Positions 15,487-23,490 of a stretch of 33,305 bases of DNA are shown piece after piece. The stretch comes from a virus. Under the pieces are notes generated by a model. It had not been told where the DNA came from and did no database searches. It saw nothing but the letters and a program-made list of their open reading frames with translations. Position numbers and translations under genes: made by a program. Numbering within the stretch: the first letter of the stretch is position 1; each line of letters opens with the position of its first letter. Where the stretch lies: positions 1-33,305 of the IMG/VR virus record IMGVR_UViG_3300017917_003044; one strand, written 5' to 3'.

Positions 15487-15494
15487 GTATTTAT
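15487..15494 (-). promoter_or_regulatory. Late-type promoter core (ATAAATAC)
   Basis: The minus strand reads ACATAAATACTA, 15 bases before the ATG of the tube cap/initiator gene and immediately after the strong gp19 terminator. The terminator-promoter pair resets transcription between the two genes. Confidence 0.6.
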
Positions 15495-15501
15495 GTCAAA
15501 A

Positions 15502-15526
15502 AAAAGCCCGGAATTTCCGGGCTTTT
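15502..15526 (-). terminator. Strong intrinsic terminator after gp19
   Basis: A near-perfect GC-rich hairpin (AAAGCCCGGAA ... TTCCGGGCTTT, one central base) is followed on the minus strand by a run of eight T (15500-15507 read in reverse). It lies between the gp19 stop and the next late promoter. This is the clearest rho-independent terminator in the window and would keep tube protein messages separate from the baseplate operon. Confidence 0.9.
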
Positions 15527-19544: not shown

Positions 19545-19552
19545 GTATTTAT
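19545..19552 (-). promoter_or_regulatory. Late-type promoter core (ATAAATAC) before gp18
   Basis: The minus strand reads TTAATAAATACTT, 29 bases before the gp18 ATG, with AAAGGAT between them. It is the clearest late-type match for a high-level structural gene in this window. Confidence 0.65.
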
Positions 19553-19602
19553 TAAAAGCTTATTATTTTGGGCAGATACGAGGTGCCTTTAAAAGGTTTT
19601 AC

Positions 19603-19610
19603 TATAAATA
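19603..19610 (+). promoter_or_regulatory. TATAAATA late-promoter match abutting plus-strand gene
   Basis: A perfect match to the T4 late consensus TATAAATA ends 5 bases before the ATG at 19616. If used, the transcript would start at about the ATG and be leaderless. It is divergent from the gp18 promoter, about 50 bases away. Confidence 0.45.
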
Positions 19611-19615
19611 GTGTT

Positions 19616-19960
19616 ATGGAAAGACCTCTTTGCACACTATGTCGTGGCAATTATGCTGCTATAAATTACCGCTTGGGTGATAAAACTTATTATAGAAAGA
19701 TGTGCGCTAGTTGTGCCAGAAAAGGCAAGCGTGTGAAAGAAATGCCAGGATGGACTAAAACTGGTTACAAGAAAAAAAACACATGCGAACGTTGCAATTT
19801 TATATCAAAAACAGCTCAACAAATTTTTGTTTTTTACATCGATGGCAACTTAAAAAATAACACATGGACTAATTTAAGAAGTGTGTGCGCCAATTGCAGA
19901 ATTGAATTAAATGCCAGCAAAACTACTTGGCGCGAGAGTACGTTGGTAGCAGACTATTAA
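19616..19960 (+). CDS. Small four-CxxC zinc protein, degenerate HNH-like
   Basis: A 114-residue protein from the ATG at 19616; an upstream TTG at 19568 is in frame but has no ribosome binding site. It has four CxxC pairs: CTLC (6-9), CASC (31-34), CERC (56-59) and CANC (93-96), enough for two zinc sites. The C-terminal half has the HNH-endonuclease frame DGNLKNNTWTNLRSVCANC, but the usual catalytic His pair before DGN is Phe-Tyr and the His after the last Cys is Arg, so cleavage activity is doubtful. Similar small HNH-like genes are frequent between T4-like phage genes. Its 3' end overlaps the end of gp1 on the other strand by 38 bases. A DNA-binding protein or decayed homing-type endonuclease is the best reading. 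Confidence 0.7.
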   Translation: MERPLCTLCRGNYAAINYRLGDKTYYRKMCASCARKGKRVKEMPGWTKTGYKKKNTCERCNFISKTAQQIFVFYIDGNLKNNTWTNLRSVCANCRIELNASKTTWRESTLVADY

Positions 19961-20582
19961 TTTTGTCATATAGTTCTTGTACGGTGCCGTTATTTTCAAT
20001 TTCATAATTAAAAATTTGTCCTATCCAAGCCCATTCACTATGATGCACCTGCGGGTACATTTGTGGCATCAGCAATCCAGAGTCTTCAAGTAACCATTGT
20101 CTATCTTCGTGCGTGGTGTTTTCGCGCAAGGCGCAATCATACCACTCGGGCAATTTTCCCCTTTTGACCCAGAAGCAAACGCCGCCGTGTTTTCTAATAG
20201 CAGCAATTTCGTTTGGAAATCTCACATCACTGATAACTATATCTTCTGTAGTTTTACGTAGTCTGTTCTCTAAACTGGCTATCCAAATATCGTTGTGAAA
20301 CCCTCTACGGCAAACTTCAGTTCCCCAAAGTTGTAGCATGTAACGAGGCGTAAGTTTGGGCATATCAAGTCTTTTTGACCACCAAGGATCTACTTGTTCC
20401 CGCCATTCCCTAGCCTCAGGAGTTAAACCTTCAAGTAATTCTCTATCCCATCCAAATACCTGTGCTACTGCATCTTTAAGTGTGCCGGCGAAACTATCCC
20501 TTACAAAACCGTGTTTTGCAACTAAGTAGTTTGCTACCGTATCTTTGCCTGATCCAATGAATCCTGTAATACCTATGATCAT
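19923..20582 (-). CDS. 1: Deoxynucleoside monophosphate kinase gp1
   Basis: A 219-residue dNMP kinase of the T4 gene 1 type, which phosphorylates deoxynucleoside monophosphates to feed phage DNA synthesis in the cytoplasm. The P-loop is GFIGSGKDT (residues 7-15). Further family signatures are KLTPRYMLQLWGTEVCRRGF near 95-114, supplying lid and substrate residues, and IVISDVRFPNEIAAIRKHGG near 134-153. T4 gp1 is about 241 residues. The ATG follows directly after a T6 run at the foot of a hairpin that includes its ribosome binding site (AGGGGG). A sigma70-like promoter overlaps that hairpin. It is the only nucleotide-metabolism gene amid structural genes here. Confidence 0.9.
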   Translation of the reverse strand: MIIGITGFIGSGKDTVANYLVAKHGFVRDSFAGTLKDAVAQVFGWDRELLEGLTPEAREWREQVDPWWSKRLDMPKLTPRYMLQLWGTEVCRRGFHNDIWIASLENRLRKTTEDIVISDVRFPNEIAAIRKHGGVCFWVKRGKLPEWYDCALRENTTHEDRQWLLEDSGLLMPQMYPQVHHSEWAWIGQIFNYEIENNGTVQELYDKINSLLPTYSRAK

Positions 20583-20584
20583 AA

Positions 20585-20608
20585 AAAATGCCCCCTAAGG
20601 AGCATTTT
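20585..20608 (-). terminator. Hairpin with T6 run overlapping the gp1 ribosome binding site
   Basis: On the minus strand AAAATGCTCC - TTAG - GGGGCATTTT folds with one mismatch (7-bp outer stem, 2-bp inner stem) and is followed by six T and then the gp1 ATG at 20582. It can act as an intrinsic terminator for transcripts from the 124-residue gene. In messages that read through, it pairs part of the gp1 Shine-Dalgarno (20591-20596). Confidence 0.65.
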
Positions 20609-20632
20609 AATATATATAATCTTAAAAGTCAA
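20604..20632 (-). promoter_or_regulatory. Candidate sigma70-type promoter for gp1
   Basis: On the minus strand TTGACT (20632-20627) and TAAAAT (20609-20604) are separated by 17 bases, each one base from consensus. The predicted start near 20597 would produce a message lacking the 5' arm of the hairpin, leaving the AGGGGG ribosome binding site open. Confidence 0.5.
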
Positions 20633-21003
20633 ACACCGTATTTGTTCTTTTTAGGTTTAGCAACTGGGCTATCCTTGTTGATGGTTGGTCCTTCTTGACT
20701 GCGCAAATCGCCGTGATTCATGTCTTCATGATCGGCATGAACTGCTTTATAAGCCAACTTTAGCATGTCCTGTTCTTCCTGGCTATAAGGAGCAGTTAGT
20801 TTCCATTTGCCCAGCCAAGACTCTTCATCAACTTCGGGCATGGTTTTACCATCTGTGGCAGCCAATGCCAAACCTAAACGATATAAAGTATAATCGCTAT
20901 TCCATTTTTTGCCGTCTGTAAATTTATTCAAGCCGCGTGTGGCTCTTCTTGCACGATCAGGTAATGTGCCTTTAGTTTCTATTATAATATCTTTTATTTT
21001 CAT
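20629..21003 (-). CDS. Small conserved marine T4-like phage protein
   Basis: A 124-residue protein; the start at 21003 is chosen because it forms a TAATG overlap with the upstream stop, rather than the in-frame ATG 15 bases earlier inside that gene. It begins MKIKDIIIETKG, giving I-I-E before T, loosely like the prohead-protease site. The middle (RRATRGLNKFTDGKKWNSDY, then LALAATDGKT and WLGKWKLTAPYSQEE) and the end (HGDLRSQEGP ... SPVAKPKKNKYGV) match a pattern I recall from conserved hypothetical proteins of marine T4-like phages. No catalytic motif is seen. Coupling to the neck-like gene suggests a virion or assembly role. Confidence 0.7.
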   Translation of the reverse strand: MKIKDIIIETKGTLPDRARRATRGLNKFTDGKKWNSDYTLYRLGLALAATDGKTMPEVDEESWLGKWKLTAPYSQEEQDMLKLAYKAVHADHEDMNHGDLRSQEGPTINKDSPVAKPKKNKYGV

Positions 21004-21923
21004 TAGCCTATCACCCACGTCATTGGATACGATCCGTCCACATAATCTTTTAATTCTTGTTCTAATTTTTCCATTTCCGCTTGTGCTTCGCCTTTTAATG
21101 TAGCACCATTGAGTTGTGTGCCGCCTTGCGGTCCTGCAATTGATGCAAACTTTTCTCTCGCTTCGCCTACGATTCGTTTAGCAAAACTGTATGCGTATTC
21201 TTGTATCCACGGAAACGCTTGATAATCATTCAACAACATGCTGTCTGGTTTGTAGTTATACAAATGCAGCAACACATCTTCGAAATCATTGGGATTTGCA
21301 TTTGCTCCCGCGAAAGGGATTTTACGAATCAAAGTTAGTTTTTTCGTTGTCTTGTTGAATGTAAAATTCAAATAGCCGCCAAACATACGCATCGCCAGCT
21401 TCTGATAATCAACAAATAGTTCGTAATTTAGTAGGCCGCCTACTCGCCCTGCTACTAACATATAGGTATTTAAATACCCCGAAGCAAACGGTTCAAATTG
21501 ACTTGCAGTAGTGCCCGAAACAGATCCAATACCACGGCGGTATGCAGCTCTTACTTCCATTACGATGTCGGGTAAAATAATTTCTTGTGTTTCAGGAAAT
21601 AGTTTCAAAAAAGCATAGCTTTCTTCTTGGCTGTTGCTGGCTCGCTGTCTATACTTCAGTAAGGCTTGATCAATAGCCATTTCATAGTGCTCTTTATCGA
21701 GCTCAACATCCACAATACCATCGCCCAGTCGCATTCTTATATAGTCTGTTATTGCAGATCTACGCTTGTGAAGCGATTCTAGCCATTCGGCATTTTCGTC
21801 GTACTCAATATGGCCTACACCTGAGCCAGTAGCAGGGTTGTAAAGGCTATCAGTTTTTAATGTACCGTTGGCATTAAAATAAGTAGTATCTGCGACAACA
21901 TTGCCAGTAAAAGGATTGGACAT
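21003..21923 (-). CDS. Neck/connector-like structural protein (gp13-like)
   Basis: A 306-residue protein, close in length to T4 neck protein gp13 (about 309). The segment IRMRLGDGIVDVELDKEHYE, followed by MAIDQALLKYRQR, has the RLG - V - AI..AL..Y pattern of the gp13/connector helical core. YAFLKLFPETQEIILPDIVM, VRAAYRRG and the FGGYLNFTFNKTTKKLTLIR stretch follow. The first 35 residues are Asn/Thr-rich and probably flexible. This family is common in marine T4-like phages and probably sits at the head-tail joint. I am sure it is structural and less sure that it is the gp13 orthologue. A late-type promoter overlaps the stop codon of the gene before it. Confidence 0.6.
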   Translation of the reverse strand: MSNPFTGNVVADTTYFNANGTLKTDSLYNPATGSGVGHIEYDENAEWLESLHKRRSAITDYIRMRLGDGIVDVELDKEHYEMAIDQALLKYRQRASNSQEESYAFLKLFPETQEIILPDIVMEVRAAYRRGIGSVSGTTASQFEPFASGYLNTYMLVAGRVGGLLNYELFVDYQKLAMRMFGGYLNFTFNKTTKKLTLIRKIPFAGANANPNDFEDVLLHLYNYKPDSMLLNDYQAFPWIQEYAYSFAKRIVGEAREKFASIAGPQGGTQLNGATLKGEAQAEMEKLEQELKDYVDGSYPMTWVIG

Positions 21924-21944: not shown

Positions 21945-21952
21945 GTATTTAT
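21945..21952 (-). promoter_or_regulatory. Late-type promoter core (ATAAATAC) before neck-like gene
   Basis: The minus strand reads TCAATAAATACAT, 21 bases before the ATG at 21923, overlapping the stop codon of the 395-residue gene (21949-21951). It separates a possible early unit (sigma70-like promoters upstream) from a late structural unit. Confidence 0.6.
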
Positions 21953-23194: not shown

Positions 23195-23453
23195 GTAGTG
23201 TTGCAAACATGAGCCAGGATTGCAATTCTTGCAACTCTTGTTGCACTTTTGCTAACTGTTCGTCATATTTTACACTGTGCCCAAAGCGGCGCCTATCCAC
23301 ATCGGCCCGACTTAGTGCTGTTACACTACTCATCAAGTTTTTGTACATGCGTTCAAGTTGACGCTTGTGTTGCAAATTGTATAACGCCCACAACGAACGT
23401 TTAATTTGCGTTTCAATTTCTTGCCAATCGTGTAGACTTTGAAATTCGCTCAT
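23172..23453 (-). CDS. Small helical protein, unknown, under a consensus sigma70-type promoter
   Basis: A 93-residue protein, predicted almost entirely helical: WQEIETQIKRSLWALYNLQH near 10-29, KRQLERMYKNLMSSVTALSR, then DEQLAKVQQELQELQSWLMF near 63-82 with heptad-like hydrophobics. This suggests a small coiled-coil protein. No signal peptide or catalytic motif. It sits directly under a perfect TTGACA-17-TATAAT promoter whose predicted start is only 2 bases from the ATG, so it would be leaderless, or translation may begin at an internal Met. Likely an early host-interaction or regulatory protein, inferred from promoter type only. Confidence 0.55.
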   Translation of the reverse strand: MSEFQSLHDWQEIETQIKRSLWALYNLQHKRQLERMYKNLMSSVTALSRADVDRRRFGHSVKYDEQLAKVQQELQELQSWLMFATLLDQKPEE

Positions 23454-23461
23454 GTGTCAGT

Positions 23462-23490
23462 ATTATATACAATGTTCTAATTTATGTCAA
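23462..23490 (-). promoter_or_regulatory. Perfect-consensus sigma70-type promoter
   Basis: On the minus strand TTGACA (23490-23485), exactly 17 bases, then TATAAT (23467-23462). Both boxes and the spacing are ideal. The predicted start is near 23455, just before the ATG at 23453. It is divergent from the late-type site of the plus-strand operon. Confidence 0.8.

Follow-up and report, generated by a model that had tools for sequence, protein, structure and literature searches.

Translation of gp1 probably depends on where its messenger RNA begins. In the window, as we call the whole 33,305-nt stretch of viral DNA analysed here (IMG/VR record IMGVR_UViG_3300017917_003044), a sigma70-like promoter lies within a hairpin that takes in the gp1 ribosome-binding site, and this promoter-in-hairpin layout is confirmed (Table 1). 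We consider a start-site gate on gp1 translation, with termination added in one clade, the likely reading of computed layout, fold, conservation, covariation, gene order and late motifs, together with two hairpin-free sets of control promoters. The gene sits in a late co-directional block of neck gene, 129-aa gene, gp1 and sheath gene. We infer that its host-type promoter would be used by sigma70 and fire early, giving an RNA that begins in the hairpin loop; as this RNA would lack the 5′ arm, its Shine–Dalgarno (SD) site, whose first base lies 14 nt before the AUG, would be free. Late RNA initiated at the TAAATAC promoter of the neck gene would carry both arms and, in the window's clade, would end at the U-run or continue with the ribosome site locked. 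The gp1 product would then come from the gene's own promoter and none from late messages.

Table 1. Features around gp1 in the window (positions of the 33,305-nt stretch).
Feature	Position	Strand	Basis or remark
−35 box TTGACT	20627..20632	−	sequence; conserved in relatives
−10 box TAAAAT	20604..20609	−	17 nt from TTGACT
Hairpin 5′ arm AAAATGCTCC	20599..20608	−	upstream of predicted start; fold and covariation
Hairpin 3′ arm GGGGCATTTT	20585..20594	−	fold
Predicted transcription start	20597	−	inferred from promoter geometry, the usual +1 being 7 nt after the −10 box
SD site AGGGGG of gp1	20591..20596	−	spans loop and 3′ arm; opening energies
T6 run, terminator-like	20583..20588	−	immediately 5′ of the ATG; minority of relatives
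gp1 ATG	20582–20580	−	after the T6 run
gp1, deoxynucleoside monophosphate kinase, 219 aa	19923..20582	−	Pfam DNMK 9.3e-12; phrog_139 2.1e-49
129-aa gene between neck gene and gp1, function not assigned	20629..21018	−	ORF
Neck protein/head–tail adaptor, upstream late gene	21003..21923	−	phrog_211 1.7e-33
Late-type promoter motif TAAATA(C) before neck gene	21946..21951	−	presumed source of read-through
TAAATA(C), late-type motif preceding the tail sheath gene; downstream of gp1	19546..19551	−	motif match

The original prediction, drawn from the boxes TTGACT and TAAAAT spaced by 17 nt, put the start of transcription near 20597 and within the hairpin loop; sequence and fold bear out the layout, with the start itself a predicted one within the loop (20598–20595, minus strand). 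The −35 box shares bases with the stop codon (20631–20629) of the 129-aa gene upstream, and five of the six bases of the −10 box are shared with the start of the 5′ arm. RNA from 20612 to 20583 forms a 10-pair hairpin of −12.7 kcal/mol (dinucleotide shuffles: mean −4.15, z = −3.85, 1 of 200 equally good), and the claimed overlap of its 3′ arm with the ribosome-binding site was found. Opening of AGGGGG was computed to cost 9.5–11.1 kcal/mol in RNAs begun at or upstream of 20608 (five starts, 20608 to 20720), and 0.06 kcal/mol for an RNA begun at 20597, in agreement with the idea that the gene's own message, without the 5′ arm, leaves the site open. The predicted own RNA places the SD site within a few nucleotides of its 5′ end, which counts against the gate. 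A 121-nt plus-strand fold was ordinary. Promoter matches of 10 of 12 positions are about as common in the window as chance predicts (57 against 54.1 expected), so the case rests on conservation in relatives. Opposite gp1, and overlapping its 3′ end, lies a weak match to an HNH endonuclease (19568–19960, plus strand; phrog_14736, 1.6e-4).

Relatives were the metagenomic viral loci L001–L080 and L093–L294, obtained by scanning IMG/VR with gp1 proteins. The gp1 start was located in 285 of 295 sequences, including published loci and the window, and 10 sequences were dropped at this step (no match, no start, or upstream DNA too short); removal of duplicates and of 10 published loci left 210 distinct gp1 upstream sequences. 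A sigma70-like promoter matching at least 10 of 12 positions was present in 179 of these 210, compared with a mean of 5.1 (maximum 9) over 20 rounds of dinucleotide shuffling, and 174 of those 179 had a −10 box ending 18–26 nt before the gp1 ATG. Both the scored promoter and the element were absent from the 10 published gp1 loci, all from cultured jumbo phages, so gp1 does not depend on the element everywhere. In Agrobacterium phage Atu_ph07, gp1 was not found in the stretch examined. A search of phage records for DNA near the window gave no match, and the exact pattern of the window's clade occurred 0 times in bacterial and archaeal genomes.

The position of gp1 within a late block is also conserved. 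Among promoter-bearing loci with enough flanking sequence, 146 of 147 had the neck gene upstream of gp1 and 151 of 151 had the sheath gene downstream of it, in the same direction as gp1. The motif TAAATA occurred within the last 60 nt upstream of the neck gene in 147 of 156 sequences, of the sheath gene in 182 of 185 and of gp1 in 7 of 210. That TAAATA acts here as a late promoter is suggested by its likeness to T4's TATAAATA, as given in PMC3014915. With the neck and sheath genes on either side of gp1 both preceded by this T4-late-like motif, late read-through should carry the entire hairpin. Elsewhere in the window, a strong terminator-like inverted repeat (15488–15526, plus-strand listing) stands directly 5′ of a late-type TAAATAC motif, and the gene behind them has a tube-like domain.

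Covariation of the two arms was assessed by a swap test, in which the sequence leading up to the predicted start and the sequence between that start and the ATG served as arms. The input comprised 181 loci with a promoter of 9 of 12 positions or better located 15–28 nt before the ATG (29 of the 210 had no promoter at this distance and were left out), clustered at 72% into 55 representatives. Own arms paired with a mean of −9.35 kcal/mol and foreign arms with −6.36 kcal/mol, and none of 5,000 permutations reached the observed value. The same layout thus recurs in the relatives, both as the promoter in 179 of 210 upstream sequences and as arms that match their own partners. Arm sequences are diverse (TGCTCC/GGGGCA, TAGCCC/GGGCT, AATGTC/GGACATT and ATAACT/AGTTAT), and some 5′ arms lie inside the promoter spacer (for example, CCCCTCA/TGAGGGG). 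Complementarity to the start region was strongest for the 14 nt that run up to the predicted start (mean −6.86 over the 55 representatives; −2.7 to −5.3 at other offsets from −150 to +60). In 30 of the 55 the 5′ arm ended at most 2 nt from the predicted start; the remaining 5′ arms fell 9–27 nt before it, within the −10 or −35 region or the spacer. These comparisons indicate that the hairpin is kept across relatives despite sequence turnover, by compensatory change. Chance complementarity between SD sites rich in purines and promoter spacers rich in pyrimidines would account for the fact that foreign arms also pair (mean −6.4 kcal/mol), yet the permutations preserve composition and still exclude chance, and two control sets showed no effect; we regard this explanation as extremely improbable.

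The same turnover bears on a DNA-level reading, in which the inverted repeat is an operator through which a regulator controls the early promoter. The repeat does overlap the −10 box and the start, as an operator might; its sequence, however, changes among relatives, some arms lie in the −35/−10 spacer, and, of 553 pairs counted over the 55 representatives, 88 are G–U, which make no DNA palindrome. An operator is therefore very improbable.

A T-run was present at 44 of the 181 gp1 loci and absent from 137. Across 37 distinct sequences with a T-run, stem pairs one to six were standard in 37 of 37 and the seventh in 23 of 37, with two-sided changes at pairs 1, 4, 5 and 6 and with exchanges between T–A and A–T (26/11) and among T–A, C–G and T–G (12/10/15); the alignment held 30 of the 37 distinct leaders, and the pair counts cover all 37. 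The swap test gave 10 of 5,000 for the 10 representatives with a T-run and 0 of 5,000 for the 45 without one (own −8.62, foreign −6.24 kcal/mol). An element that is mainly the intrinsic terminator of the late neck unit, enclosing promoter and ribosome site only from tight space, would fit the association of T-runs with strong hairpins, both at gp1 (mean −13.6 with a T-run versus −9.1) and at the DsbA-like genes described below. It is nevertheless unlikely as the main function, given the missing T-run at most loci, the covariation of the representatives without it, the uptake of four of the six Ts by the stem and the absence of the site from a terminator scan, which predicted no minus-strand terminator from the neck promoter down to gp1. 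The conserved part of the layout appears to be hiding of the ribosome site, not the terminator U-run. For read-through RNA, the original prediction had allowed for either outcome, ending at the T6 run or hiding of the site; hiding fits the opening energies and the covariation, and ending could apply to a minority of loci.

Predicted opening of the SD site in relatives followed the pattern of the window. Means over the 55 representatives were 6.9 kcal/mol for read-through RNA and 1.6 kcal/mol for own RNA, with a gain of at least 3 kcal/mol in 43 of 55 (144 of 181 loci overall). The 12 representatives below 3 kcal/mol count against the gate, which may be weak or otherwise built there. An opening cost of at least 5 kcal/mol was found in 39 of the 55 gp1 representatives versus 13 of 44 control gene starts. 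Hairpins between genes are frequent processing sites, and the structure could in principle serve processing or stability of read-through messages, with the hidden ribosome site a side effect. Processing, however, needs neither an SD site in the 3′ arm, which is regular here, nor a 5′ arm that ends at the promoter start, which is frequent, and we judge this account quite improbable.

Similar promoters elsewhere served as controls for the gate. The gene p395, which is of early type and precedes the neck gene, has a sigma70-like promoter in 20 of 32 upstream sequences; here, with an early-type gene following another early-type gene, the swap test on 17 sequences (three near-duplicates of the 20 dropped) gave no own-arm advantage (3,462 of 5,000). 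Nor did 31 other sigma70-like sites with an SD site on seven large relative contigs (1,874 of 5,000). All 57 non-gp1 sigma70-like sites pooled gave a weak own-arm signal (34 of 5,000), which counts against the gate; the pool includes two DsbA-like and two function-unassigned genes with a gp1-like layout, and the signal is partly due to such sharing. The proposed switch, with gp1 expressed early and not late, is thus supported at the sequence level by a conserved promoter, covarying arms, late-block context and similar promoters elsewhere that are hairpin-free.

The closest known systems are in T4. PMC3014915 describes genes e, soc, 49 and I-TevI with a promoter in the 5′ strand of an SD-hiding hairpin, such that long upstream transcripts are silent and short own transcripts are translated, with an effect of about 100-fold for gene e. 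According to PMC2988022, every gene regulated in this way is a late gene located on early- and middle-gene transcripts, and the same hairpin logic is given there for I-TevII, I-TevIII, segB and Aeh1 mobE. The anatomy is alike at gp1, where the long RNA would hide the SD site and the predicted own start drops the 5′ arm. The class differs: in T4 the own promoter is late and early or middle read-through is silenced, whereas gp1 has a host-type promoter (sigma70-like in 179 of 210, TAAATA in 7 of 210) and late read-through would be silenced; in addition, one clade has a U-run. Sharing the T4 anatomy without the late class, gp1 would work alike, as a mirror-image variant. The homing-endonuclease hairpins also differ in belonging to mobile genes with late or middle promoters, whereas gp1 is a nucleotide-metabolism gene in conserved order. 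A literature search for the same layout recognised none by title or start of abstract, with subscription papers mostly outside its coverage. In IS10 and IS50, read-in RNA hides the transposase start and own RNA leaves it accessible; there, the arms come from the element ends and no temporal classes are involved, and gp1 is a deoxynucleoside monophosphate kinase in conserved gene order, not a transposase.

The layout extends to other genes. DsbA-like genes (phrog_639; one record annotates a similar gene as DsbA) from L295, L298 and L304–L383 had a promoter of 9 of 12 positions or better 12–30 nt before the ATG in 55 of 57 distinct upstream sequences, and 26 representatives passed the swap test (1 of 5,000). 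A hairpin at −9 or below was found in 20 of 20 upstream sequences with a T-run versus 6 of 35 without. These upstream sequences often carry T5–T7 before the ATG. In L295, the DsbA-like gene is followed by a long ORF that we take to resemble DNA polymerase. A 141-aa gene of unassigned family in L297 has promoter, hairpin and T6 before its ATG (element at about 2778–2829 in the orientation of L297), and its upstream region resembles that of gp1 in the window's clade.

The neck gene, which has a late promoter, gave −7.81 kcal/mol for own and −5.13 kcal/mol for foreign arms (0 of 5,000) in 40 representatives, including four published phages, drawn from the 89 of 157 distinct upstream sequences that carry the motif within their final 45 nt. 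In the window, its arms are ATAGTTCTG (21972–21964) and CGGGAACTAT (21935–21926), minus strand, with the late promoter between them and the SD site hidden by pairing; the 56-nt fold of this region was ordinary (z = −0.46). Strong versions of the neck arms occur in relatives such as L020, L044 and L047. The sheath gene was considered as a further late case and rejected: its swap test fell short of significance (381 of 5,000), although single relatives look convincing.

Other arrangements were seen at gp1. Six upstream sequences had a promoter of 9 of 12 positions or better ending 4–8 nt before the ATG and no SD site, and these six genes are leaderless by appearance. Eleven other gp1 genes overlap the end of an exonuclease gene that precedes them (Rv2179c-like; Pfam 2.2e-33 in the single case scanned), and in several of these, among the matches listed, the promoter ends 6 nt before the exonuclease ATG. 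Both arrangements would also tie translation to the gene's own start. A 93-aa gene of the window has a perfect TTGACA-17-TATAAT promoter (23453–23490, minus strand) that would start RNA at about the ATG, and it too is leaderless by appearance. We propose tentatively, with somewhat more doubt than confidence, that start-site gating is a general insulator at temporal-class borders in this group of large T4-like phages, with leaderless, SD-less starts as a second route and same-class neighbours hairpin-free. Such an insulator would act wherever late genes are followed by an early-type one (gp1, DsbA-like) and also where a late gene comes after an early-type one (neck), the promoter within the hairpin silencing the gene on the other class's messages.

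The lesson from T4 is that late genes can stay silent on early messages. gp1 would be the mirror image, an early-type gene shielded from late messages, and the gate would explain how an early enzyme gene stays within a late structural block. If true, this mirror-image gate is kept across a wide range of uncultured phages and at more than one gene, and it suggests a compact rule by which temporal classes may be legible from phage DNA alone.
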